A stretch of 39,129 nucleotides of DNA from Burkholderiaceae bacterium (GTDB lineage Bacteria; Pseudomonadota; Gammaproteobacteria; Burkholderiales; Burkholderiaceae_D). Positions 1,095-33,646 of the stretch are shown here, in pieces. Each line of letters begins with the position of its first letter. Position 1 is the first letter of the stretch. A program made the position numbers and the translations under genes. Below the pieces are notes generated by a model, which made no database searches, had not been told where the DNA came from, and saw only the letters and a list, made by a program, of their open reading frames with translations. The DNA is taken from NCBI GenBank assembly GCA_023653025.1, contig JAMNXS010000022.1, positions 1-39,129 on the forward strand. Direction: 5' to 3'.

Positions 1095-1209
1095 CAGTCA
1101 ATTGACCGCAGCGCACAGCAAGCCCTCCGTGGCCCTGCGGCGCTGTCTGCTAGAATCCAAGCCTCTTCAGCCACCAGACAGCCCGTCCCACGGACGCTGC
1201 TGCGCCAGC

Positions 1210-3516
1210 ATGGATTCCGACAACACACAAGACCAGGTGCGCCAGCAATTCCGGCAGGCCGCCCTCGAATATCACGAGTTTCCCGCCCCCGGCAAGATCA
1301 GCGTCACGCCGACCAAGCAACTGACCAACCAGCGCGACCTCGCGCTGGCCTACTCGCCCGGCGTGGCTGCGGCCTGCGAGGAAATCGCCGCCGAACCGTC
1401 GAACGCCTTCCGCTACACCGCACGCGGCAATCTGGTCGCCGTCATCACCAACGGCACCGCCGTGCTGGGCCTCGGCAACATCGGCCCGCTGGCCGCCAAG
1501 CCGGTCATGGAAGGCAAGGGCGTCCTGTTCAAGAAATTCGCCGGCATCGACGTCTTCGACATCGAGATCAACGAGACCGACCCCGACAAGCTGTGCGACA
1601 TCATCGCCGCGCTCGAGCCGACGTTCGGCGGCGTGAACCTAGAGGACATCAAGGCGCCCGAGTGCTTTTACATCGAGCGCAAGCTGCGCGACCGGATGAA
1701 GATCCCGGTCTTCCACGACGACCAGCACGGCACCGCGATCATCGTCGGCGCCGCCATCCTGAACGGACTGAAAGTGGTCGGCAAGGATATCAGGCACTGC
1801 AAGCTGGTGGTGTCCGGTGCGGGCGCGGCCGCGCTGGCCTGCCTCGACCTGATCGTCGACTTGGGCTTCCCGATCGAGAACATCACCGTCACCGACCTCG
1901 CCGGCGTCGTCTACAAGGGCCGCACCGAGCTGATGGACCCGGACAAGGAACGCTTCGCGCAGGACACGGCAGCGCGCACGCTGGCCGAAGTCATTCCGGG
2001 CGCCGACATTTTCCTCGGCCTGTCGGCCGGCGGCGTGCTCAAGCAGGACATGGTGCGCCAGATGGCGCCGCGTCCGCTGGTGCTGGCGCTGGCCAACCCG
2101 ACGCCCGAGATCCTGCCCGAGGAAGTGCGCGAGGTGCGCGACGACGCCGTCATCGCCACCGGCCGTTCGGACTATCCGAACCAGGTCAACAACGTGCTCT
2201 GCTTCCCGTACATTTTCCGCGGCGCGCTCGACTGCGGCGCGACCACCATCACGCGCGAGATGGAAATCGCCGCCGTGCACGCGATCGCCGAGCTGGCGCA
2301 GGCCGAGCAGTCGGACGTGGTGGCCACCACGTACGGCGTGACCAACCTGTCGTTCGGCCCGGAATACCTGATTCCGAAACCCTTCGACCCGCGCCTGATG
2401 CTGAAGATCGCGCCGGCCGTGGCGCGCGCCGCCGAGCAGTCCGGCGTCGCGCTGCGCCCGGTCCGCGACATGGCGGCCTACACGGACCGCCTGCAGCAGT
2501 TCGTCTACCACAGCGGCAGCTTCATGAAGCCGGTGTTCGCCATCGCGAAGAAGGCGCCGGCTGACAGGAAGCGCATCGTCTTCGCCGAAGGCGAAGAAGA
2601 GCGCGTGCTGCGCGCGGTGCAGGTGGTGATCGACGAGGGCCTCGCGCGCCCCACGCTGATCGGCCGTCCCGCCGTGCTGTCGCAGCGCATCGAGCGCTAC
2701 GGCCTGCGCCTGCGCCCGGGCGTCGATTTCGACACCATCAATCCCGAGCAGGACGACCGCTACCGCTCGTACTGGGAAACCTTCCTGCAGATGGGGCGCC
2801 GCAAGGGCGTCACCGAGCAGTGGGCCAAGCTCGAGATGCGCCGCCGCCACACGCTGATTGGCTCGATGGCCATCCACAAGGGTGATGCGGACGGCATGAT
2901 CTGCGGCACCTACGGCAGCACCGACCTGCATCTGCACTACATCGACATGGTGCTGGGCAAGCGTGCCGGCGTGAACACCTACGCGGCGATGAACGCGCTG
3001 GTGCTGCAGGACCGGCAGGTGGTGCTGGTCGATACCCATGTCAACGACAACCCCAGCGCCGAGCAACTGGCCGAGATCACCATCATGGCCGCCGAGGAAA
3101 TGAAGCGCTTCGGCCTGCATCCGCGCGCGGCGCTGCTGTCGCACTCGAACTTCGGCAGCAGCAGCAACGAGTCGGCGCAGAAGATGCGCGCCGCGCTGGC
3201 CCTGATCCGCGAGCGCGCGCCGGACCTCGAGGTCGACGGCGAAATGCACGGCGACACCGCGCTCGATGCCGGCCTGCTGCGCGGCACGATGCCCGACACC
3301 CCGCTCAAGGGCGACGCCAACCTGCTGGTGATGCCGAACATCGACGCGGCCAACATCGCGTATAACCTGCTCAAGGTCGCCGCCGGCAACGGCGTGGCCA
3401 TCGGCCCGATCCTGCTCGGCTGCGCCCGCCCGGTGCACATACTGACGCCGTCGGCCACCGTGCGCCGCATCGTCAACATGACCGCGCTGGCGGTGGTGGA
3501 CGCGGTGCAGCGGTAG
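1210..3516 (+). CDS. maeB: NADP-dependent malic enzyme with C-terminal phosphotransacetylase-like domain
   Basis: The 768-residue protein is the large hybrid malic enzyme: it oxidatively decarboxylates malate to pyruvate, producing NADPH. From the N-terminus it has the malic enzyme catalytic domain ([19 protein letters not shown], then the FHDDQHGTA motif), a Rossmann NAD(P) domain ([15 protein letters not shown]) to about residue 430, and a PTA/PTB-like domain over the last 330 residues ([12 protein letters not shown] near its start). The PTA domain of this class is regulatory (acetyl-CoA sensing) in studied members. The open frame runs further upstream, but homology begins at [13 protein letters not shown], so I choose the ATG at 1210. 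It is divergent from thiL and followed by a strong terminator. Confidence 0.95.
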
Positions 3517-3530
3517 GCGCCCGCGCCCCG

Positions 3531-3570
3531 AGGCCGCCGTTCCCGCGAGGGTCGGCGGCCTGCTGTTTTC
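3531..3570 (+). terminator. Rho-independent terminator of maeB
   Basis: A perfect 9-bp stem, AGGCCGCCG (3531-3539) with CGGCGGCCT (3553-3561), encloses a 13-nt loop. It is followed by GCTGTTTTC. It lies 15 nt past the maeB stop. Confidence 0.8.
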
Positions 3571-3587
3571 AGAGCGGGGCGGTGAAT

Positions 3588-3593
3588 TACAAT
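3588..3593 (+). promoter_or_regulatory. Possible -10 element for the lipid-pentose operon
   Basis: TACAAT lies 32 nt before the TTG start of the HAD-UbiA gene and just past the maeB terminator, the right place for an operon promoter. No good -35 box is visible 16-18 nt upstream. Confidence 0.3.
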
Positions 3594-3625
3594 ACGCGCG
3601 CGTCCAGCCGCATGAGGACAATGCC

Positions 3626-5059
3626 TTGAACCCCATCCCGCTCGCCGTCGACCTCGACGGCACGCTGGTCCAGACCGATACGCTGCACGAGGCGGCGCTG
3701 CGCGCGCTGCGCGAGCGGCCGCTGGCCTTGCTGCAGCTGCCGTTCTGGCTGCTGCAGGGCAGGGCGGAGGTCAAGCAGCGGCTGGCCGGGCTGTCGCGCT
3801 TCGATCCGGCCGCGCTGCCGTACAACCAGCAGCTGCTCGACTGGCTCGCCACGCAGCGCGCGCAGGGCCGCCGGCTCGTCCTCTGCACCGCCGCCGACCG
3901 CAGTATCGCCGATGCCGTCGCCTCCCACCTCGGCATCTTCGACGAGGTGCTGGCCAGCGACGGCCGGACCAATCTCGGCGGACAGCAGAAGGCCGAGGCG
4001 CTCGAGCGCCGTTTCGGCGCCGGCGGTTTCGACTATGCCGGCAATGCACGCACCGACCTCAAGGTCTGGCGCCGCGCGCGCCGTGCCGTGGTCGTCAACG
4101 CGGCCCCGGCCGTGCAGCGCGCCGCGCGCGAATGCTGCGATATCGATACCTCCTTCGCGCCGCACGCGCCCGACCTCGGCACGCTGGCGCGCGTGCTGCG
4201 CGTGCACCAGTGGATGAAGAACCTGCTACTGTTCATGGCGCCGATGGCTGCGCACATCGTGCCCGACGCCGGCCTCGCCACGCGCCTGCTGCTGGCCTTT
4301 CTCGCGTTCAGCCTGTGCGCGTCTACCGTGTATGTCGCCAACGACCTGTTCGACCTCGACAGCGACCGCCATCATCCGCGCAAGCGCCGCCGCCCGTTTG
4401 CCGCCGGCCGGGTGCCGGTGGCGTGGGGCGTGATCGCCGCCCCCTTCCTGCTGGCGGCCGGCTTCCTGCTCGCGCTGCCGGTCGGCAGCGCCTTTCTCGG
4501 CTGGCTGGCTGTCTATTTCGTGGTGACCTGCGCCTACTCATGGGGGCTCAAGCGGCTCGTGATCGTCGACTGCCTCGTGCTGGCGCTGCTGTATGCGCTG
4601 CGCATCATTGCCGGCGCGGCAGCGGCCGGCATACCGATGTCGTTCTGGCTGCTGGCCTTCTCGGCCTTCCTGTTCCTGTCGCTGGCCTTCGTCAAGCGCT
4701 ATGCCGAGCTCGACGTGCAGGCCAGCATCGGCCGCGAGCGTGCGCATGGCCGCGGCTACCTGACGGCCGACGCGCCGCTGGTGCAGAGCCTCGGCATCAT
4801 GTCCGGCTACTCGGCCGTGGTGGTGCTGGCGCTGTACCTCAACAGCGACGCCGTGCTGCGCCTGTATCGCTCGCCCGAATTCATGTGGTGCGCGGTGCCG
4901 GTGATGCTGTTCTGGATCAGCTGGATCTGGATGAAGGCGCACCGCGGGCAGATGCACGACGATCCGCTGCTGTTCGCAGTGCGCGACCGCGCCAGCCTTG
5001 CCGCAGGCGCCGCCTTCGTCGCCGTGCTGCTGCTCGGTTCGCGGGGCTGGACGTGGTAG
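3626..5059 (+). CDS. HAD phosphatase-UbiA fusion, decaprenyl-phosphate phosphoribosyltransferase-like
   Basis: The 477-residue protein has two parts. Residues 1 to about 185 are a HAD hydrolase: DLDGT with nucleophile pair D9/D11, LCTAADRS as motif II, a Lys in GGQQKAEAL, and AGNARTDLKVW as the acidic motif. From about residue 190 it is a UbiA-type polytopic membrane prenyltransferase: HQWMKN near W196, NDLFDLDSD at 239-247 followed by HHPRKRRRPFAAG, and VKRYAEL at 356-362. These motifs match the mycobacterial phosphoribosyltransferase Rv3806c (NDVxDxxxDRxHPxKRxRP, KRYAEL) better than UbiA of ubiquinone synthesis. I infer phosphoribosyl transfer from PRPP to polyprenyl phosphate, with the HAD domain possibly removing the 5-phosphate. 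The start is TTG with GAGGA 8 nt upstream; no in-frame ATG fits. First gene of the operon. Confidence 0.85.
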   Translation: MNPIPLAVDLDGTLVQTDTLHEAALRALRERPLALLQLPFWLLQGRAEVKQRLAGLSRFDPAALPYNQQLLDWLATQRAQGRRLVLCTAADRSIADAVASHLGIFDEVLASDGRTNLGGQQKAEALERRFGAGGFDYAGNARTDLKVWRRARRAVVVNAAPAVQRAARECCDIDTSFAPHAPDLGTLARVLRVHQWMKNLLLFMAPMAAHIVPDAGLATRLLLAFLAFSLCASTVYVANDLFDLDSDRHHPRKRRRPFAAGRVPVAWGVIAAPFLLAAGFLLALPVGSAFLGWLAVYFVVTCAYSWGLKRLVIVDCLVLALLYALRIIAGAAAAGIPMSFWLLAFSAFLFLSLAFVKRYAELDVQASIGRERAHGRGYLTADAPLVQSLGIMSGYSAVVVLALYLNSDAVLRLYRSPEFMWCAVPVMLFWISWIWMKAHRGQMHDDPLLFAVRDRASLAAGAAFVAVLLLGSRGWTW

Positions 5060-6339
5060 CCGTCAGCGCCTGGGGCCGGCTCGGCCGGCACGAGCACCGG
5101 ATGCTCGGCCTGTCCGACCGGGCGCGCGTCGCGGGCCAGCTGGCCACCGACCACCCGGGCCTGGCCTGGGGCATGGGCCGCAGCTACGGCGACGTTGGCC
5201 TGAACCCGGGCGGCCTGCTGTGGAACACGACCGCACTTGACCGCTTCATCGGCTTCGACGAACAGCAGGGCCTGCTGCGCTGCGAAGCCGGCGTCCTGCT
5301 GCGCGACATCCAGCGCCTGTGCGTGCCGCGCGGCTGGATGCTGCCTGTCGTGCCCGGCACGCAGCTGGTGACCGTGGGCGGCGCGATCGCCAACGACATC
5401 CACGGCAAGAACCATCATCTGCACGGCAGCTTCGGCGACCATGTCGCGGCCTTCTCGTTGGCACGCACCGACGGCAGCCTCGCGCGCTGCGTGCCGGGCC
5501 AACCCTTGTTTGCCGCAACTGTCGGCGGGCTGGGCCTGACCGGCGTGATCGTCGAGGCCGAGATCCGGCTGCGCCGCGTGCCCGGGCCCTGGCTGTGTAT
5601 CGAGACCCTGCCCTACCGCGACCTCGCGCAATTCTTCGACCTGGCCGACGCGTCGGAAGCCGGCTGGGAGCACACGGTGTCGTGGATCGATTGCCTTAAC
5701 CGCAGCGGCCGCGGCATCTTCCTGCGCGCCAACCCGACCGATGCCGGGCTGCGCGAACCGCCGCCGCGCGCCAGCCGCCGCGTTCCTTTCGATCCGCCGG
5801 TGTCGCTGGTGAACCGGCTGTCGCTGCGTCCGTTCAACGCCGTCTACCATGCGATGCAGCGCACGCGCGCCACGCGCATCGAACACTACGAACAGTTCTT
5901 TCATCCGCTCGACAACCTGCTCGAGTGGAACCGCATCTACGGACCGCGCGGCTTCTACCAGTACCAGTGCGCGCTGCCGCGCGCCGCCGGCAAGCTCGGC
6001 GTGCAGGCGATGCTGGAAACGATCGCAAGTGCCGGCATGGGATCCTTCCTCGCGGTGCTGAAGACCTTCGGCGAGCGCGAGCCGCTCGGCATGCTGAGTT
6101 TTGCCCGGCCCGGCGTCACGCTGGCGCTGGATTTTCCGAACCGCGGCGAGCACACCGAAGCGCTGTTCGCGTCGCTCGATGCGATTGTGCGCGAGACCGG
6201 CGGACGGCTGTACCCGGCCAAGGATGCGCGTATGCCGCGCGAACTGTTCGAGGCAGGCTATCCGCGCCTGCCGGAATTTTTGCCGCATCGCGACCCGGGT
6301 ATCAGCTCGGCCATGTCGCGCCGGCTGATGGGCTCATGA
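5053..6339 (+). CDS. DprE1-like FAD-dependent polyprenylphosphoryl-ribose oxidase
   Basis: The 428-residue protein is an FAD-binding (vanillyl-alcohol-oxidase type) oxidoreductase. GRSYGD (Tyr45), PVVPGTQLVTVGGAIAND and DIHGKNHH (His117) with SFGDHV line up closely with mycobacterial DprE1, and the C-terminal half ends with GGRLYPAKDAR (Lys390), matching the catalytic lysine region of DprE1. DprE1 oxidises the 2-hydroxyl of decaprenylphosphoryl-ribose to a keto intermediate. The residue aligning with the benzothiazinone-target Cys387 is Ala358 (GVTLALDFP). The start is a GTG overlapping the upstream stop by 7 nt, chosen because the conserved SAWGR motif lies before the first ATG (5101). Upstream and downstream overlaps show an operon. 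Confidence 0.88.
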   Translation: MVAVSAWGRLGRHEHRMLGLSDRARVAGQLATDHPGLAWGMGRSYGDVGLNPGGLLWNTTALDRFIGFDEQQGLLRCEAGVLLRDIQRLCVPRGWMLPVVPGTQLVTVGGAIANDIHGKNHHLHGSFGDHVAAFSLARTDGSLARCVPGQPLFAATVGGLGLTGVIVEAEIRLRRVPGPWLCIETLPYRDLAQFFDLADASEAGWEHTVSWIDCLNRSGRGIFLRANPTDAGLREPPPRASRRVPFDPPVSLVNRLSLRPFNAVYHAMQRTRATRIEHYEQFFHPLDNLLEWNRIYGPRGFYQYQCALPRAAGKLGVQAMLETIASAGMGSFLAVLKTFGEREPLGMLSFARPGVTLALDFPNRGEHTEALFASLDAIVRETGGRLYPAKDARMPRELFEAGYPRLPEFLPHRDPGISSAMSRRLMGS

Positions 6340-6356
6340 GAGAAGGCACGACGAGT

Positions 6357-7088
6357 ATGCAGAAGATTGTCATCATCGGGGCCAGCTCCGCCATCGCCGA
6401 GCACTGCGCGCGGCTGTGGGCGCGCCAGCCGGTGTCGCTGGTGCTGGTCGGCCGCGAGTTGACGCGCGTACAGCGCGTGGCCGACGATCTGCGCGTGCGC
6501 AGTCCGCAATCGCAGGTACAGGCGCTGCAAGCCCGTTTTGACGATCCGGCCGCCATCGGCGAACTGGCCGGGCGCATTGCCGCCGAAGGGCGCATCGACA
6601 TCGTACTGATCGCGCATGGCAACCTGCCGGACCAGACCGCCTGCGAACGCGATCTATCGGCCGCGCAGCAGGCGCTGCTGGTCAATGGTGTGTCGCCGGC
6701 GCTGTTCGCCGAAGCCTTCGCCGGCATGATGCAGACCACGGGCGGCACGATTGCCGTGATCGGCTCGGTGGCCGGCGACCGCGGCCGCAAGTCGAATTAC
6801 GCGTACGGTGCGGCCAAGGGCCTTGTCGATCGCTACCTGCAGGGCATGCAGCACCGCTTTGCGCGCGGACCGCTGAAGCTGGTGCTGGTCAAGCCCGGCC
6901 CGACCGCCACGCCGATGACAGCGCATCTGCCGCCGCGCGGATTGGCGCCGGTGGAGGCGGTCGCGCAATGCATCATCGACGGCATCGCGGCCGGCGCGCC
7001 GGTCGTGTACGCGCCGGCGAAGTGGCGGCTGATCATGATGGTGATCCGGCATCTGCCGCGGTTTGTTTTTAACCGGATGGATATTTGA
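6357..7088 (+). CDS. DprE2-like short-chain dehydrogenase (keto-arabinose reductase)
   Basis: The 243-residue SDR has a Rossmann motif GASSAIAE (residues 8-15), catalytic Ser137, Tyr150 and Lys154 (YGAAK), and a C-terminal segment with VVYAPAKWR and MMVIRHLPR that strongly resembles the C-terminus of mycobacterial DprE2. DprE2 reduces the keto intermediate made by DprE1 with NADH, completing the 2-epimerisation from ribose to arabinose. An ATG at 6336 overlaps the dprE1-like stop (ATGA) and would add seven residues; I prefer the ATG at 6357 because AGAAGG lies 10 nt before it and the family starts there. The stop is 12 nt before a repeat array. Confidence 0.87.
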   Translation: MQKIVIIGASSAIAEHCARLWARQPVSLVLVGRELTRVQRVADDLRVRSPQSQVQALQARFDDPAAIGELAGRIAAEGRIDIVLIAHGNLPDQTACERDLSAAQQALLVNGVSPALFAEAFAGMMQTTGGTIAVIGSVAGDRGRKSNYAYGAAKGLVDRYLQGMQHRFARGPLKLVLVKPGPTATPMTAHLPPRGLAPVEAVAQCIIDGIAAGAPVVYAPAKWRLIMMVIRHLPRFVFNRMDI

Positions 7089-7100
7089 TCCAGGCGTTGA

Positions 7101-7364
7101 TGGCGGATTTCGCTGCGCTCTATCCGCCCTACGGTGTCTCGGGTGGTCCGTAGGGCGGATAGAGCGCAGCGACATCCGCCACGCCGAGAGCAGCGGCCCC
7201 AGCCGGAATCGTAGGGCGGATAGAGCGCAGCGAAATCCGCCACGTCGAAAGCAGCAGCCCCAGCCGGAATCGTAGGGCGGATAGAGCGCAGCGAAATCCG
7301 CCACGCCGAAAGCAGCAGCCCCATCCTGAATCGTAGGGCGGATTGAGCGCAGCGACATCCGCCA
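7101..7364. repeat. REP-like array 1: five palindromic units
   Basis: This array fills the gap between the dprE2-like and epimerase genes. One reverse unit (7101-7133) faces four forward units (7149-7181, 7210-7242, 7271-7303, 7332-7364). The forward units repeat with an exact 61-bp period because the 28-bp spacers are near-identical, so the whole cassette was duplicated. Each unit holds the arms GGCGGAT and ATCCGCC (or close variants) and an inner GCGCAGC. The gap holds no other gene; the 32 bp before the next start include the normal 5' region of the epimerase gene. Confidence 0.95.
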
Positions 7365-7384
7365 TGTTTAACCGACAGCCCGCA

Positions 7385-8335
7385 ATGAACACTGAGAGCC
7401 TCACCCAAAAAATCATCCTCCCCGGCGGCGCCGGCCTCGTCGGGCAGAACCTTGTCGCCCGCCTGAAGGCGCGCGGCTACACAAACCTCGTCGTGCTCGA
7501 CAAGCACCGCGCCAACCTCGAGGTGCTGCGCCGCATGCACCCTGAGCTGACGATAGAACACGCCGACCTCGCCGAGCGCGGCGACTGGCAGTGCCATTTT
7601 GCGCAGGCGCGCGCGGTGGTGATGCTGCAGGCGCAGATCGGCGGCAATGAATACCGCGATTTCGAGCGCAACAATCTGGTATCCACCCGCAACGTGCTCG
7701 ACGCGATCCGAGACGGCAAGGTCGAGCAGCTGGTACATATCAGCTCCTCGGTGATCGAATCGGTGGCCGACGATTTTTATACCAACACCAAGAAGGCCCA
7801 GGAAGCGATGGTGCGCGACAGCGGCATCGCCTGTCCGGTGCTGCGCCCGACTCTGATGTTCGGCTGGTTCGACCGCAAGCATCTCGGCTGGCTGTCGCGC
7901 TTCATGCAGAAAGTGCCGGTATTCCCGGTGCCGGGCAACGGCCGCTACATGCGCCAGCCGCTGTACGTCGGCGATTTCTGCGGCATCATCATCAGCTGCA
8001 TCGAGAACCGGATCGCCGACGGCACTTTCAACATCTCCGGCCACGAGAAGGTGGACTACATCGACATCATCCGCGAGATCCGCCGCGCCACCGGCGCGCG
8101 CATGATGATCCTTAACATTCCTTACGGTCTGTTCCATGCGCTGCTCTGGCTATGGAGCCGCTTCGACGCCAACCCGCCGTTCACCACCCAGCAGCTCGAG
8201 GCGCTGGTGGCGAAGGACGAGTTCGAGGTCATCGACTGGCCCGGCATCTTCGGCGTGAAGAACACGCCGTTCTCCGCGGCCATCCGCGAAACTTTCTGCG
8301 ACCCGACCTACAGCCGGGTCCTGCTGGAGTTCTGA
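7385..8335 (+). CDS. NAD-dependent epimerase/dehydratase family protein
   Basis: The 316-residue protein is an extended SDR. It has GGAGLVGQN near residue 15 for NAD(P) binding, a HISSSVIES segment and the catalytic pair in YTNTK (YxxxK), with SER replaced in the usual YxxSK pattern. The middle carries [13 protein letters not shown] and YVGDF, typical of NAD-dependent sugar epimerases. Its substrate is not readable from sequence. The open frame extends 14 codons into the repeat array, but MNTESLTQK at 7385 is the first start outside the repeat. Its stop overlaps the next start (TGATG), so it forms one unit with the FAD oxidoreductase and GtrA genes. I infer a role in making or modifying the lipid-linked sugar. 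Confidence 0.8.
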
Positions 8336-9663
8336 TGAGCTCGCTCAACCAGCGCATCGCCGTGCTCGGCGCCGGCCCGATGGGGCTAGCCGTGGCCTAC
8401 CAGCTCGCGCGCGACGGCCATCGCCCCGTGGTGTTCGAAGCCGACGACCGCGTTGGCGGCATGACCGCCTGCTTCGACTTCAACGGTCTTTCCATCGAGC
8501 GCTACTACCACTTTCACTGCACGTCAGACCATGCTTTCCTGCAGGTGCTCGACGAACTGGGCATCGCGCACAAGATGCGCTGGGTCGAGACGAAGATGGG
8601 CTACTGGCACCGGCGCCGGGTGCAGCCCTGGGGCAATCCGGTCGCCTTGCTGAAGTTCCGCGGCCTGTCGTTGCCGGCGAAGTTCCGCTACGGGCTGCAT
8701 GCGTTCCTGAGCACGAAGCGCAACGACTGGAAGCCGCTCGATCATGTCGAGGCCACCGGCTGGATCCGGCGCTGGGTCGGCGACGAAGCGTGGGAAGTCT
8801 TGTGGCGGCGGCTGTTTGACTACAAGTTCTACGACTACAAGGACAACCTGTCGGCCGCATGGATCTGGAGCCGCATCCGCCGCATCGGGCGTTCGCGCTA
8901 CGACCTGTTCCGCGAAAAGCTCGGCTATCTCGATGGCGGCTCGACCACGCTGCTCGAGGCGCTGAAGGCCGACATCGAGCGCCACGGCGGCGAGATCCGG
9001 CTGCAGTCAGCCGTGCAGCGCGTGCGCATGGCGGGCGCGCGCGTGACCGGCATCGAGACGGCCGCCGGCTTCGAGCCCTTCAACAAGGTGGTCAGCACGA
9101 TACCGCTGCCCTATGTGCCGCGCGTGATGCCGGACCTGCCGCAGGATGTGCTGCAGAAGTTCGGCGCGCTGAAGAACATTGCCGTGGTGTGCGTGATCGC
9201 GAAACTGAAGAAGCCGCTGACCGAGAATTTCTGGCTGAACGTCAACGATCCCGATATGGATATTCCGGGGCTGGTCGAATATTCGAACCTGCGCCCCCTG
9301 GGTCAGGCGATCGTCTACGTACCGTTCTACATGCCGGGCGAACATCCGAAGTATGCACAGGCCGACGAAGTCTTCATCGGCAAGGTGAAGCGCTACCTGC
9401 AGCAGATCAATCCGGCGCTGGCCGATGACGACTTCATCGACATCCGCGCCAGCCGCTACCGGCACGCGCAGCCGATCTGCCCGCCTGGCTATCTCGACAT
9501 GCTGCCGCCGGTCGCGCTGCCAGTACAGGGGCTGTGGGTGGCCGACACGTCGTACTACTACCCGGAAGATCGCGGCATCTCCGAGAGCATAGGCTTCGGG
9601 CGGCGGATGGCAGGGGAGGTTGCCGGGGCCGCGGGGGCCGCCGCAGCCGACACTCGCGCATGA
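8335..9663 (+). CDS. FAD-dependent NAD(P)-binding oxidoreductase (amine oxidase/mutase-like)
   Basis: The 442-residue flavoprotein has an N-terminal dinucleotide fold [17 protein letters not shown] ending in a conserved acidic residue ([10 protein letters not shown]), then [10 protein letters not shown] in the middle, and a C-terminal FAD-binding motif ([17 protein letters not shown]). This pattern belongs to the broad group containing protoporphyrinogen oxidase, amine oxidases and UDP-galactopyranose mutase; I see no decisive mutase signature. Its place between a sugar epimerase and a GtrA protein suggests glycolipid or nucleotide-sugar chemistry. The ATG shares its first base with the upstream TGA, and its own TGA overlaps the gtrA-like start. 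Confidence 0.78.
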
Positions 9664-10058
9664 TCCGCCCGTTCATGAACCGCCAGTTTTTCGCCTTCGT
9701 CCTGACGGGCGGGCTGGCGGCCGGCGTCAACTTCGGCTCGCGCATCGTCTACAACCAGTGGCTGGATTTTTCGAGTTCGGTCGTGCTGGCCTACCTGACC
9801 GGCATGCTGACGGCCTTCATCCTCGCGCGCGCCTTCGTGTTCACGCAAGGCACGCAATCGGTCCGGCGCAGCGCCCTGTTCTTCGTGCTGGTCAATGGCG
9901 TGGCGGTGCTGCAGACCTGGGCGATCAGCATGGGGCTGGTCACCCTGCTGCCGCTGGCGGGCGTCGAGCGCTTCGTGCCCGAGATCGCGCATGCGGTGGG
10001 CGTGATGGTACCGGTGTTTACCAGTTACCTCGGGCACAAGCGGTTTTCGTTTCGGTGA
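9660..10058 (+). CDS. GtrA family membrane protein
   Basis: The 132-residue protein has about four membrane segments and the GtrA pattern: [16 protein letters not shown] near the N-terminus, a central hydrophobic pair around [19 protein letters not shown], and a last helix ending in YLGHKRFSF. GtrA proteins are associated with moving or presenting polyprenyl-phosphate-linked sugars across the membrane. In Mycobacterium tuberculosis a GtrA-like protein (Rv3789) lies next to dprE1 and dprE2, a parallel to this locus. The start overlaps the upstream stop as ATGA; a second possible start is at 9675. Confidence 0.87.
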
Positions 10059-10079
10059 GGCGGATACCGTTGAGCGTTG

Positions 10080-10169
10080 TGGCGGATTTCGCTGCGCTCT
10101 ATCCGCCCTACGGTATGCAATGCGCGTCCCCCGATCCGTAGGGCGGATAGAGCGCAGCGAAATCCGCCA
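10080..10169. repeat. REP-like array 2: inverted pair
   Basis: A reverse unit (10080-10112) begins 21 nt after the gtrA-like stop and faces a forward unit (10137-10169). The pair lies between convergent genes. Confidence 0.93.
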
Positions 10170-10244
10170 TCCATCCCCGCCATCCATCCCCGCCATCCAT
10201 CCCCGCCATCCATCCCCGCCATCCATCCCCGCCATCCATCCCGC
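10168..10244. repeat. 13-bp minisatellite
   Basis: The unit CATCCATCCCCGC occurs five times without a mismatch from 10168 to 10232, followed by a sixth copy missing one C. It abuts the forward REP-like unit, whose last bases CCA form the start of the first copy. It ends 9 nt before the stop of the convergent glycosyltransferase gene. Confidence 0.95.
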
Positions 10245-10252
10245 CGTCACCC

Positions 10253-11749
10253 CTACAACCCGTACATCTCCAAAAACCTGCACCCAACCAACGGCAACCA
10301 CGATGGCACCCGGTAATACCGTGCGGCCGCCGGCCTGATGACGCCGTCGAAGTAGGGCTGGAAGCGGAAACCGCGGCCTTCGGCGACCCAGAAGCGCGCG
10401 CCGTCGAGCGTCAGCTCCCGCACCTCGACCGTCTCGAAATAGCCTGCCATCGCCGCCGCATCTAGGCGCTTGGTGCTGAAGATGCGGAGGGACTTGCCGT
10501 CGAGCTGGCGGAAGTCGGTGAGGTTGTCGTCGAAGCGCGCATGAAAGCTGCCCGGCCCGAACACCGGGATATAGCGCTGCGCATGGTAGGCCAGCAGCGA
10601 CGACTGGCTGTAGGACGGGGTCATCAGCACGGCGCCTGCCGGCAGTTCGCGCTCGAGCTCGGCCACCAGCGCCCGGCCCTCGCGATGCATGACGAGATCG
10701 GCATGCACCTTCATCGATGAAAAATGCGCGCTCGGCAGATGGGCCAGCAGCGCCAGCGCGATCAGGTGCGGCAAGCCCAGCCACAGCGTCCAGCGCCGGT
10801 GCCGCTGCAGCGTCGCCTCGTCCAGCCGCAGGCCCGCGAATAGGAACACGAAAGGCAGGAACGCCAGTACCCAGTGCAGGCCGATGACCTTGTAGAAGGC
10901 CAGCAGCAGGAACAGCGTGAACGGCACGACGAACATCATCGCCAGTGTCCAGTGCGCGCGCCAGCCGCCGGCACGCAGCAGGGCCCAGCCGGTCCACGGC
11001 GTGACCAGGTACACCAGCATGGCCGCATAGGTGCCGACCTGTGCGGGAGAGAAATGCGAGCCGGCGTTCCGGTTCATCAGATTGAACAGGATGTTGTTCC
11101 AGCAGTGGGTCGCGTTCCATGCCAGGTTGATCAGCATGAAGGGCAGCGCGCACAGCGCGACCAGCAGCAGCCGCTGCAGGCCGCCGCGGCGCGGCAGCAG
11201 GTAGAAGGCGTAGGCGATGGCCAGCAGGCCGGCGAAGTACTTCGAGAACAGCGCCAGCCCCAGCAGCACGCCGCTGGCGGCCATCCAGCGCAGCTGCCCC
11301 GACTGCTCGCCGCGAATGAACGCATAGCCGGAGAAGAACAGGAAGAGGATCAGCGGCGTGTCGGTTGTGATCAGATTCAGCGACCAGGTGAAGGGCAGTG
11401 CGAGAAACAGGCTGCCCATCAGCCATGGCTTGTCGCCGGCGTCGGGCTGCAGGCGGCGCAGCAGGTCCATCATGCCCACGCCCACGACGATCCAGAGCAG
11501 CACCGCCGGCAAGCGCAACACCAGCGGGTGCGACGAGACGCCTTGCAGTGCCCACAGCCACCAGCCCGCCATCGGCGGATGGTCGTAATAGCCGCCCCAG
11601 TCGAGGTGCCTGCCCCACTGGTAAAAATAGGCTTCGTCCCCGGTCAGCGGAATCGCGGCAGCCAGCCACAGCTTGATCAGCGTGGTAATCGCCAGCACGG
11701 AGAAGAACAACCGGCGCGCGGCCGGGGAGGGGAGGGCAGAAAGTGTCAT
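10253..11749 (-). CDS. GT39-family (ArnT-like) membrane glycosyltransferase
   Basis: The 498-residue protein is a GT-C type integral membrane glycosyltransferase. After a first membrane helix (about residues 14-34) it has LTGDEAYFYQW, with Asp38/Glu39 as the likely catalytic acids of the first periplasmic loop, then GGYYDHPPM with Asp56 and His57, typical of ArnT and related GT39/GT83 enzymes. About ten hydrophobic segments follow, and the last 170 residues form a soluble domain with an ELPAGAVLMTPSYSQSS stretch. Such enzymes use polyprenyl-phosphate sugars as donors at the periplasmic face. Convergent with the pentose operon, it is a candidate user of the donor made there; donor and acceptor are not visible from sequence. 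The ATG at 11749 is followed immediately by the hydrophobic N-terminus. Confidence 0.82.
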   Translation of the reverse strand: MTLSALPSPAARRLFFSVLAITTLIKLWLAAAIPLTGDEAYFYQWGRHLDWGGYYDHPPMAGWWLWALQGVSSHPLVLRLPAVLLWIVVGVGMMDLLRRLQPDAGDKPWLMGSLFLALPFTWSLNLITTDTPLILFLFFSGYAFIRGEQSGQLRWMAASGVLLGLALFSKYFAGLLAIAYAFYLLPRRGGLQRLLLVALCALPFMLINLAWNATHCWNNILFNLMNRNAGSHFSPAQVGTYAAMLVYLVTPWTGWALLRAGGWRAHWTLAMMFVVPFTLFLLLAFYKVIGLHWVLAFLPFVFLFAGLRLDEATLQRHRRWTLWLGLPHLIALALLAHLPSAHFSSMKVHADLVMHREGRALVAELERELPAGAVLMTPSYSQSSLLAYHAQRYIPVFGPGSFHARFDDNLTDFRQLDGKSLRIFSTKRLDAAAMAGYFETVEVRELTLDGARFWVAEGRGFRFQPYFDGVIRPAAARYYRVPSWLPLVGCRFLEMYGL

Positions 11750-11828
11750 GCGAGCAGTGTCATGTCAAAAGGGCTACCCTAGCTTGTGAAGTAGATTCAC
11801 CCCTGGCGCAGCCCGACATTGTAGTTGA

Positions 11829-11957
11829 TGCAAGTTCGGAAAAGCTTGCGAGGGCGTCCCGGTACTCGGCTGGGAATACCGCGGCCGCCAGCAGTTGCAG
11901 CTGAATTTTCTCGGCTTCAATGGGGTCATGCTGCAGTTCAGCCTGCCGGTACGCTGA
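11829..11957 (+). pseudogene. Possible C-terminal remnant of an outer-membrane beta-barrel protein
   Basis: An open frame without a start codon encodes a stretch containing PVLGWEYRGRQQLQLNF and GVMLQFSLPVR before a TGA at 11955-11957. Alternating polar and hydrophobic residues look like two terminal beta-strands of a barrel protein. A stop lies just upstream in frame. The rest of the 11750-12030 gap shows nothing else I can support. The call rests only on residue pattern and is weak. Confidence 0.2.
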
Positions 11958-12030
11958 GCCTGCACTTGGAGACCGGCGAACGCAGGCTATTCTGGCGGCC
12001 GTGGTGAATCGCTGACCCGGGCGCGGACGT

Positions 12031-12354
12031 TCACGGAATACGGACGGTGCCGTGAATGACGATGCCCGGCCCGCCGTGCGGGTGCGGGCCGCCTGCCGGT
12101 ACCGGGACATACACCGGCGCAGGACCCTGATGGCCGTACTTCGGTGCCTTGCACTTCCGTTCTTCCTTGTACTCGCCGCTCTTGTCGAACTTGCGCTCGA
12201 CCTTGCAGTGGCCGTCCCAGTACGCTTCCTTGATCTCGCGTCCGCCACCGTGCCGCTTGCCGTGACCGCTTTCATCCTTCCAGGAATCGGCGCTTGCCCA
12301 CAGCGGCGCGGTCGCGAGCGACAGGGCAAGCAGACATTTGATCGGGTTGTTCAT
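12031..12354 (-). CDS. Small secreted His/Gly/Pro-rich protein of unknown function
   Basis: The 107-residue protein starts with a clear signal peptide (MNNPIKCLLALSLATAPLWASA, cut after about residue 22). The mature part is rich in Lys, His and Gly: a KRHGGGREIKEAYWDGHC segment, a Lys/Glu-rich middle with two Cys, and a Pro/Gly/His tail (GGPHPHGGPG). I do not recognise a named family. The predicted periplasmic location and a Cys/His content compatible with metal or nucleic-acid binding are all that can be read. GGAGGTG lies 5 nt before the ATG, which decides this start over an upstream in-frame one at 12441. Confidence 0.7.
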   Translation of the reverse strand: MNNPIKCLLALSLATAPLWASADSWKDESGHGKRHGGGREIKEAYWDGHCKVERKFDKSGEYKEERKCKAPKYGHQGPAPVYVPVPAGGPHPHGGPGIVIHGTVRIP

Positions 12355-19026: not shown

Positions 19027-19305
19027 TGGCGGATTTCGCCTGCGGCTCTATCCGCCCTACGGTTCAACCGGTCAACGTACCGTAGGGAAGATAGAGCCGC
19101 AGTCAATGTGCCGTAGGGCGGATAGAGCCGCAGGCGAAATCCGCCGAACGACGACAGCCAGTGCCGTAGGGCGGATAGAGCCGCAGGCGAAATCCGCCGA
19201 ACGACGACAGCCAGTGCCGTAGGGCGGATAGAGCCGCAGGCGAAATCCGCCGAGCGACGACAGCCAGTGCCGTAGGGCGGATAGAGCCGCAGGCGAAATC
19301 CGCCG
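19027..19305. repeat. REP-like array 3: five units of the GCC/GGC subtype plus one degenerate copy
   Basis: A reverse unit (19027-19061) faces four forward units at 19112-19146, 19165-19199, 19218-19252 and 19271-19305, with an exact 53-bp period. A decayed copy lies at 19081-19104. All full units have the inner sequence GCCGCAGGC rather than GCGCAGC. The array separates convergent genes, and nothing else is visible between 18998 and 19343. Confidence 0.94.
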
Positions 19306-19343
19306 AACGACGACAGCCAGCTTCACGTCAATCCGCCATGCAC

Positions 19344-23909: not shown

Positions 23910-24207
23910 TGGCGGATTTCGCTGCGCTCTATCCGCCCTACAGGAACCACCCAGCCCTTCCCGAAGCCGTAGGGCGGATAGAGCGCAGCGAAATCCGCCA
24001 TGCATGCCGAGAGCCCCAGCCTCAGCCCCAGCCCCAGCCGAAACCGTAGGGCGGATAGAGCGCAGCGAAATCCGCCATGCATGCCGAGAGCAGTGGCCGT
24101 AGCCGAAACCGTAGGGCGGATAGAGCGCAGCGAAATCCGCCAAGCATGCCGAGAGCAGTGGCCGTAGCCGAAACCATAGGGCGGATAGAGCGCAGCGAAA
24201 CCCGCCA
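23910..24207. repeat. REP-like array 5: five units
   Basis: A reverse unit (23910-23941) faces forward units at 23968-24000, 24045-24077, 24110-24142 and 24175-24207. The last three repeat with a period of 65 bp. The last unit has an ACCCGCC arm with the unchanged GGCGGAT partner, one mismatch in the stem. The array sits between azlD and pgk; 24208-24308 holds the pgk promoter region. Confidence 0.94.
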
Positions 24208-28186: not shown

Positions 28187-28219
28187 CGTAGGGCGGATAG
28201 AGCGCAGCGAAATCCGCCG
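28187..28219 (+). repeat. REP-like unit 6, single copy
   Basis: One forward unit with GGCGGAT and ATCCGCC arms lies 17 nt before the purC start. It is the only locus in the window with an unpaired unit. Confidence 0.9.
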
Positions 28220-31864: not shown

Positions 31865-32234
31865 TGGCGGATTTCGCTGCGCTCTATCCGCCCTACGAAA
31901 CTCGCCAGGTCGCGTCGTCCGCCCCCGTCACACCGTGAAATCCGCCATGCGGCTCCACCTGTCCCTCGTCACACCGTGAAATCCGCCATGCGGCTCCACC
32001 TGTCCCTCGTCACGCCGAGAAACCCTCCATTGCGCTCCGTCTGCTCTTCGTCACGCCGGAAGACCCGTAGGGCGGATAGAGCGCAGCGAAATCCGCCACA
32101 GCGCACCACCCACCTCCTCACGCCGGAAGACCCGTAGGGCGGATAGAGCGCAGCGAAATCCGCCACAGCGCGCCACCCACCTCCTCATGCCGGAAGACCC
32201 GTAGGGCGGATAGAGCCGAAGGCGAAATCCGCCA
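31865..32234. repeat. REP-like array 7 with a 41-bp tandem insert
   Basis: A reverse unit (31865-31897) begins 8 nt past the sua5 stop. Forward units follow at 32066-32098, 32133-32165 and 32200-32234 with an exact 67-bp period; the last has the inner variant GCCGAAGGC. Between the reverse and forward parts lies a separate 41-bp tandem: 31927-31967, 31968-32008 and a degenerate third copy 32009-32049. The first two contain GTGAAATCCGCC, so the 41-mer may derive from a broken unit. Nothing else is seen in 31857-32242. Confidence 0.93.
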
Positions 32235-33505: not shown

Positions 33506-33646
33506 TGGCGGGTTTCGCTGCGCTCTACCCGCCCTACGGCGCTTCACGGGTTTTCCGGCGGGTTTCGCTGCGCTCTACCCGCCCTACGGCGATCAGGTAA
33601 GGCTTCTTCTAACCGTAGGGCGGGTAGAGCGCAGCGAAACCCGCCG
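33506..33646. repeat. REP-like array 8: three units of the GGGT/ACCC subtype
   Basis: Two reverse units (33506-33538 and 33556-33588; 50-bp step) face one forward unit (33614-33646). All have outer arms GCGGGT and ACCCGC with the inner GCGCAGC. It is the only array in which the left, reverse unit is the duplicated one. It starts 23 nt past the stop of the AMP-binding-like gene and lies upstream of msrA; 33647-33737 holds short remnants with AAACCCGCC. Confidence 0.93.

Follow-up and report, generated by a model that had tools for sequence, protein, structure and literature searches.

In Citrobacter youngae O1/O2, a three-component pentofuranose system consists of the HAD-UbiA fusion ORF15, a MATE flippase and a GT-C enzyme of family GT136, and includes the epimerase ORF13 (PMC11127046). 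The HAD part of ORF15 strips the 5′-phosphate and the UbiA part makes farnesyl-phospho-ribose, and a HAD-UbiA fusion has been shown to produce polyprenyl-phospho-ribofuranose; homologs of DprE1 and DprE2 have been predicted to serve arabinose-bearing glycans in Gram-negative bacteria (PMC11127046). Pilin arabinosylation by PSPA7_6245-6251/TfpW of Pseudomonas paraeruginosa is described in the accessible part of PMC12369383. Here we analyze a related locus on a contig of 39,129 nucleotides from a Burkholderiaceae bacterium (JAMNXS010000022.1, assembly GCA_023653025.1), the whole of which is called the window below. The locus comprises a six-gene operon on the forward strand (3626-10058) and a convergent GT-C gene. 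We favor, with moderate confidence, the reading that it is an extracytoplasmic pentofuranosylation system with three components, of the arabinofuranose type, supplemented by an auxiliary module that modifies the donor and is formed by two enzymes here named Epi and Flavo. All seven genes, which the original prediction had placed in this region, are present as open frames:

3626-5059, forward: HAD-UbiA, a fusion of a predicted polyprenyl-phosphate phosphoribosyltransferase with an N-terminal 5′-phosphatase (NF006088, PF01040, PF12710, PDB)
5053-6339, forward: DprE1-like flavin adenine dinucleotide (FAD) oxidase, predicted polyprenylphosphoryl-ribose C2 oxidase (NCBIfam DprE1 model, PDB, conserved residues)
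6357-7088, forward: DprE2-like short-chain reductase, predicted 2-keto reductase giving the arabino sugar (NF005489, NF053786)
7101-7364, no strand: five copies of a 31-base repeat resembling repetitive extragenic palindromic (REP) elements, between DprE2 and Epi, outside the pathway (repeat search)
7385-8335, forward: Epi, an extended short-chain dehydrogenase/reductase (SDR), predicted epimerase/reductase of the auxiliary module (PF01370, conserved residues)
8335-9663, forward: Flavo, an FAD enzyme with an amine oxidase/phytoene desaturase fold, auxiliary module (NF005560, structure model)
9660-10058, forward: GtrA/DPMS-type membrane protein, predicted flippase of polyprenyl-phospho-sugar (PF04138, 51 bits)
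10253-11749, reverse: GT-C glycosyltransferase, predicted pentofuranosyltransferase using a lipid-linked donor (PF13231, structure model)

With the chosen starts the genes overlap at three joints, by 7 bases (5053/5059), 1 base (8335/8335) and 4 bases (9660/9663). The predicted lipid-pentose synthase, flippase and GT-C (HAD-UbiA, GtrA and GT-C) are thus encoded together in the window. In the pathway that we propose, HAD-UbiA, the predicted maker of polyprenyl-phospho-ribofuranose from phosphoribosyl pyrophosphate (PRPP), would provide a lipid-linked ribose, DprE1 would oxidize its C2, and DprE2 would reduce the resulting keto group to give polyprenyl-phospho-D-arabinofuranose. Epi and Flavo would form a second redox pair that further changes the lipid-linked pentose after DprE1/DprE2, GtrA would flip the modified lipid-linked product, and the ArnT-like GT-C would transfer the pentose to an acceptor outside the membrane. 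The donor steps as far as polyprenyl-phospho-D-arabinofuranose, which follow from homology and conserved residues, are highly probable. Judged solely from gene association, use of this lipid-linked donor by the GT-C is likely, and action of Epi and Flavo on that donor is only slightly favored. That Epi and Flavo invert C3 after the C2 inversion, yielding polyprenyl-phospho-D-lyxofuranose, or make a pentofuranose that is none of ribose, arabinose and xylose, is an improbable refinement.

The locus resembles that of C. youngae O1/O2 in having a HAD-UbiA fusion, an epimerase that would alter the pentose on the lipid and a GT-C as last step, and differs in the DprE1/DprE2 type of C2 epimerization (rather than ORF13), the added Epi-Flavo pair and GtrA instead of a MATE flippase; GT136 and ORF13 are set beside the window by description only, its GT-C being nearest ArnT by fold. 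With the mycobacterial pathway (Rv3806c, Rv3807c, DprE1, DprE2, Rv3789, AftA/Emb) it shares clear homologs of DPPR synthase and DprE1, a DprE2-like reductase and a GT-C end step, whereas its phosphatase is the fused HAD domain rather than Rv3807c, it has two extra enzymes, its GT-C is nearer ArnT/Pmt4 than Aft/Emb by fold, and the position of DprE1 Cys387 is Ala. As far as the accessible part of PMC12369383 goes, P. paraeruginosa likewise has a UbiA-type synthase and a D-arabinofuranose donor in a Gram-negative background, but the PA7 synthase lacks the HAD (PRP) domain (PMC11127046) and the acceptor is type IV pilin. The polyprenyl-phospho-D-arabinofuranose-like donor put forward by the original prediction was a natural inference which the UbiA and oxidase families fit, although the parallel itself had already been described in Gram-negatives (PMC11127046; accessible part of PMC12369383).

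A comparable set is listed, with no pathway given in the accessible part of the publication, in the lipopolysaccharide (LPS) loci of Xanthomonas oryzae BXO8 and X. citri 306 between metB and etfA (PMC2238763). It comprises a prenyltransferase, an oxidoreductase, a short chain dehydrogenase, an epimerase, a protoporphyrinogen oxidase/phytoene desaturase and a GtrA-family protein, alike by name and size only (481, 433, 242, 312, 430 and 136 aa in BXO8, similar to the window set), and unlike the window set it lies within an O-antigen locus that also encodes a methyltransferase and further membrane proteins (PMC2238763). In Azorhizobium, a resemblance to M. tuberculosis led to the suggestion that noeC/noeH/noeO of noeCHOP supply a D-arabinose precursor; there the acceptor is the Nod factor, and the accessible part of the report does not mention Epi or Flavo (PMC2443382).

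HAD-UbiA scored 662 bits against NF006088 (cut-off 351), followed by DPPR-synthase models at ≤153 bits (cut-off 207), and a PDB sequence search (E ≤ 0.001) returned two matches only, both DPPR synthase (best E 6.7e-28). The Rv3806c-like nature claimed for the UbiA protein thus holds, since it groups with DPPR synthase in profiles and PDB. The gene had been described as UbiA, which is right for the PF01040 part but overlooked an N-terminal HAD phosphatase (PF12710, 43 bits). Residues N239, D240, D243, D247, K122, D144 and R358 are kept in 101 of 101 aligned proteins, and E361, which pairs with R358 in loop IV, in 100, the remaining one having Asp. The N-D-x-x-D-x-x-x-D motif and the loop IV R/E pair of ORF15-type synthases are therefore present, with motif residues and spacing identical to those of C. 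youngae ORF15, for which N247/D248/D251/D255/R366/E369 are discussed (PMC11127046). In the HAD part, D9 and D11, which include the nucleophile Asp, are found in 99/101 proteins and are gaps in the other two, and the predicted phosphatase step is supplied by this domain fused to UbiA. One phage example of HAD-UbiA is mentioned in PMC11127046; our search of 50,697 phage records gave no match at E ≤ 1e-20.

For the oxidase, DprE1 entries were the best PDB matches (E ~1e-68; next family xylitol oxidase, 1e-6) and the DprE1 model was the top NCBIfam match, although at 336 bits it lies below the model's cut-off of 500. In M. tuberculosis numbering, taken from the alignment with the PDB matches, the positions of Y60, H132, W230, Q334, Q336, K367, Y415 and K418, which we take to be DprE1 active-site positions, are identical in 100/100 DprE1-like proteins; N385 gives way to Thr in 90 proteins and to Ser in 10, and Cys387, the cysteine attacked by benzothiazinones, is Ala in 99. 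The oxidase is filed here as DprE1-like, as had been proposed, and probably has DprE1-like function. Given that the UbiA protein and the oxidase group with DPPR synthase and DprE1, both fall inside the clades in which the original prediction had to find them, and the sequence part of that test was passed. The reductase is the weakest assignment among the predicted donor enzymes: NF005489 matched at 227 bits (cut-off 267), and the DprE2 model NF053786, as the earlier label DprE2-like would have it, did match, but only second-best at 136 bits (cut-off 250). With both enzymes below their NCBIfam equivalog cut-offs, and with the N385 and Cys387 replacements, the pair might act on some other lipid-linked sugar and form a different 2-keto-derived or 2-epimer product, and the locus would then be no arabinose pathway. 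We regard this as very unlikely, because the partner enzyme is by its motif residues a PRPP-type phosphoribosyltransferase, so that a ribofuranosyl lipid is the expected substrate, and because all other DprE1 positions checked are retained.

We next consider how the genes occur together elsewhere. The sample consisted of 80 HAD-UbiA loci, the best 80 of 528 confirmed, in which presence was scored by tblastn at ≥60 bits; it includes several members of the window's genus (L060, L061, L062, L065, L079, L088, L122) and two copies from Dyella with identical DprE1 (L133, L136). The latter are two chromosome sites of the six-gene set in the complete genome of Dyella jiangningensis, perhaps a recent duplication. 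Cultured relatives with the set include Janthinobacterium psychrotolerans (L067) and Massilia kyonggiensis (L063). Among these best 80 loci, DprE1 adjoins HAD-UbiA in 75 and both DprE1 and DprE2 do so in 70; the five with DprE1 and no DprE2 include four contig ends, 0.3-1.9 kb after HAD-UbiA. Neither gene was found in five, where inspection for an ORF13-like epimerase revealed SDR-like frames nearby in L100 and L107.

Of the best 80 of 528 loci, 26 carry both Epi and Flavo and none carries just one of them (SDR matches at 23% identity and below 60 bits in L100 and L130 were excluded from the Epi count); the gap between the two matches is 3-64 bases in 22 of these loci and 1.4-2.2 kb in the other four. 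The original prediction's two extra enzymes beyond the mycobacterial set, an epimerase and a flavoprotein, are real. We placed the presence of the pair on a quick tree of 68 of the 100 DprE1 proteins, labeled by locus rather than by genome, from which we omitted genus near-duplicates and those rows without Epi/Flavo whose contig continued for less than 6 kb past DprE1 (warnings concerned the long rows L191 and L195 and the odd make-up of L187, L189, L191 and L200). Presence switches 12 times on this tree, at least 8 of them on starred branches, and 0 of 500 shuffles gave a number as low; the two genes, still clustered, come and go as one unit. In L110, L121 and L131, DprE1 is 44-46% like that of the window and Epi and Flavo are 69-78% like theirs, a contrast that fits module exchange.

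Two further samples gave the same association. In a class sample of 274 genomes, a flavoprotein of the PRK07233 family (E ≤ 1e-60) was present in 12 genomes and a PPPRS match (E ≤ 1e-30) in 64. Window-type Epi stood beside Flavo in 7 of the 12 (G000, G071, G090, G114, G120, G233, G294), all with DprE1 and DprE2 near and all except G071 with GtrA. The other five (G061, G079, G087, G222, G269) had no window-type Epi, DprE1 or DprE2 near the flavoprotein; another extended SDR lay near it in G222 and G269, and a DprE1 match occurred only in G087, on a separate contig. Among 72,556 plasmid records searched at E ≤ 1e-60, DprE1 was found in 59, and 7/7 records with Flavo had DprE1 1.70-1.83 kb off; the three plasmids read out (Burkholderia, Agrobacterium and a Rhodobacteraceae) share the order UbiA-DprE1-DprE2-Epi-Flavo-GtrA. 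The set thus spans Alpha-, Beta- and Gammaproteobacteria, plasmids included, and is not special to Burkholderiales, the setting earlier envisaged for this gene order. As the order is found again in the window's genus and in distant relatives, it is not due to chance; recurrence across the genus, the HAD-UbiA loci, the DprE1 tree and the plasmids rules out chance adjacency.

These distributions bear on an alternative in which the final donor is plain polyprenyl-phospho-D-arabinofuranose and Epi and Flavo act on the acceptor glycan or a nearby sugar, co-travelling because they serve one surface glycan. As this alternative would allow, 44 of the best 80 of 528 loci have DprE1/DprE2 next to HAD-UbiA and lack Epi/Flavo, although some are short contigs (L060 was scored without the pair but its contig stops after DprE2). 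The published Xanthomonas set sits within an LPS locus among other genes, according to the accessible part of PMC2238763, and in two loci of the genus, L044 and L045, the rest of the set including GtrA and GT-C is present without Epi/Flavo. No Flavo match was found in a search of the whole L044 and L045 genomes, and the GT-C is therefore kept without the pair. Against it, Epi and Flavo are tied to the PPPRS-DprE1-DprE2 operon across three proteobacterial classes and plasmids, with genes touching or overlapping, and the six-gene operon has no nucleoside diphosphate (NDP)-sugar enzyme or GT2 of its own. In addition, Epi-Flavo-GtrA is inserted inside the operon, between UbiA and DprE1, in L189 and L190, and is therefore part of the same unit. 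On balance we consider the alternative unlikely, though it is the strongest of those weighed, and prefer action of the pair on the lipid-linked donor.

Apart from L044 and L045 and the sub-threshold DprE1 and DprE2 scores, some observations weigh against the favored reading of an arabinofuranose system with a donor-modifying module. Locus L187 has the Epi-Flavo pair and no GtrA match; in G087, Flavo and DprE1 lie on separate contigs and neither has a window-type Epi beside it; in G021 a distant Flavo (29% identity) lies 2 Mb from DprE1; and the 1.8 kb left after DprE1 in L098 gave no match to DprE2. The O-chain of X. citri Xcc99-1330, another strain than the gene-listed 306, is a rhamnose polymer according to the accessible part of PMC8042644, and no unusual pentose in a Xanthomonas O-antigen was found in the open PMC literature, as far as its texts were accessible. 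The Flavo fold, moreover, gives no substrate, its nearest neighbors acting on carotenoid or porphyrin.

As to the enzymes themselves, Epi matches PF01370, and its glycines 14, 17 and 20 (dinucleotide-binding) and Y132xxxK136 are identical in 14/14 aligned proteins, so that it should be a working SDR; motifs of both types were used for ORF13 (PMC11127046). Flavo scored 568 bits against NF005560 (cut-off 252) and has a flavin amine-oxidase fold, its structure model (predicted local distance difference test, pLDDT, 92.9) being nearest phytoene desaturase and protoporphyrinogen oxidase. It is conceivable, but improbable, that Flavo acts on the polyprenyl chain by desaturation, reduction or isomerization and so tailors the lipid for GtrA or GT-C. 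Distant PRK07233 flavoproteins adjoin genes for GT2 and GtrA (L199), GT2 (L181), GT2 and extended SDR (L183) or extended SDR (L185), which suggests that the wider family may act on lipid-linked sugars. We found no paper on PRK07233 in the open PMC literature.

Window-type GtrA was detected by profile search (E ≤ 1e-3) in 26/26 Epi-Flavo loci versus 0/54 others among the best 80 of 528, a count that is partly by construction since the profile was built mainly from GtrA proteins of the same loci and misses divergent GtrA. It missed, for example, the protein at 13555-14010 of L135, which matches PF04138 at 33.8 bits; 11368-11835 of L120 encodes a GtrA lookalike, by appearance only. Exceptions to the link are L044 and L045, with GtrA and without the pair, and L187, with the pair and without a GtrA match. 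Because window-type GtrA tracks Epi/Flavo and not DprE1/E2, its equation with Rv3789 is doubtful, and a role as DprE1/E2 partner in the manner of Rv3789 was set aside, given its presence in none of the 54 loci lacking the pair. LPG_synthase_TM proteins lie near HAD-UbiA-DprE1-DprE2 without window-type GtrA in L102 (9019-9987), L129 (13472-14413) and L194 (2185-3120). They are possible alternative flippases, and the flippase may accordingly vary among these systems.

The GT-C protein matches PF13231, with no match in NCBIfam at E ≤ 0.001 and none for its sequence profile in PDB. Its structure model (pLDDT 86) has the ArnT (GT83) fold and is nearest ArnT and Pmt4, which does not bear out the supposed parallel with AftA. 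Across the genus it was on the operon's contig in 17/17 genomes where it was found (21 searched; G005 by coordinates only). Seven relatives encode ten membrane proteins in the interval from DprE2 to Flavo; Pfam matched 1/10, so that family membership did not identify them as GT-C. Homologs of the window GT-C (37-45% identity) adjoin a PPPRS gene in L056, L057 and L196. Searches of these three genomes at E ≤ 1e-30 found neither DprE1 nor Flavo. These two-gene units, at 1113-4044, 10003-12338 and 7554-10881, respectively, have a HAD part in L056 and L196 and none in L057, and are candidate minimal ribofuranose systems.

The donor half, Gram-negative lipid-linked arabinose, is already known, and the Epi-Flavo cassette itself is visible in print. 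PMC11127046 mentions, without an explanation, that some systems of Xanthomonas and Bacillus have several candidate epimerases or GT-Cs, and because that paper reports such systems in Xanthomonas, Epi and Flavo may appear in its supplement. Figures S11 and S12 of that paper aside, we found no statement in the open PMC literature, as far as its texts were accessible, that Epi and Flavo are strictly inherited together or that they are linked to the arabinose donor. The arabinose branch of three-component systems would have a second tier, a redox pair usually accompanied by a flippase, which come and go together. It reaches Alpha-, Beta- and Gammaproteobacteria, plasmids and, by published gene lists as far as these are accessible, the LPS loci of plant pathogens. 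With a defined six-gene set, the identity of the displayed pentose can be tested directly, and a sugar hitherto unseen in glycans may come to light.

Upstream of the operon, in a source genome of 2.9 Mb in 126 contigs, lie an aminoimidazole ribonucleotide (AIR)-synthase-type gene (96-1094, reverse), which we take to be thiL, and a malic enzyme gene with a phosphotransacetylase domain, with its end at 3516; the malic enzyme query of the genus comparison was partly out of frame and served as a place marker only. The 31-base GC-rich repeat TAGGGCGGATAGAGCGCAGCGAAATCCGCCA has 19 copies in the window at ≤3 mismatches (0 expected), at 7101-7364, 10080-10169, 23910-24207, 28189-28219, 31865-32165 and 33506-33646. 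Copies of this REP-like repeat lie between DprE2 and Epi and after GtrA, where the original prediction had not noted them. A looser pattern gave 101 genomic copies, which often form inverted pairs or short tandem arrays, and a search of the genome for a Y1 transposase gave a sub-threshold PF01797 match only. The gap between GtrA and GT-C contains a perfect 13-base tandem repeat of 6.1 copies (10164-10242), and a 53-base tandem array of 4 copies at 19108-19320 contains GTAGGGCGGATAGAGCCGCAGGCGAAATCCGCC, a variant of the TAGGGCGGATAGAGCGCAGCGAAATCCGCCA repeat.

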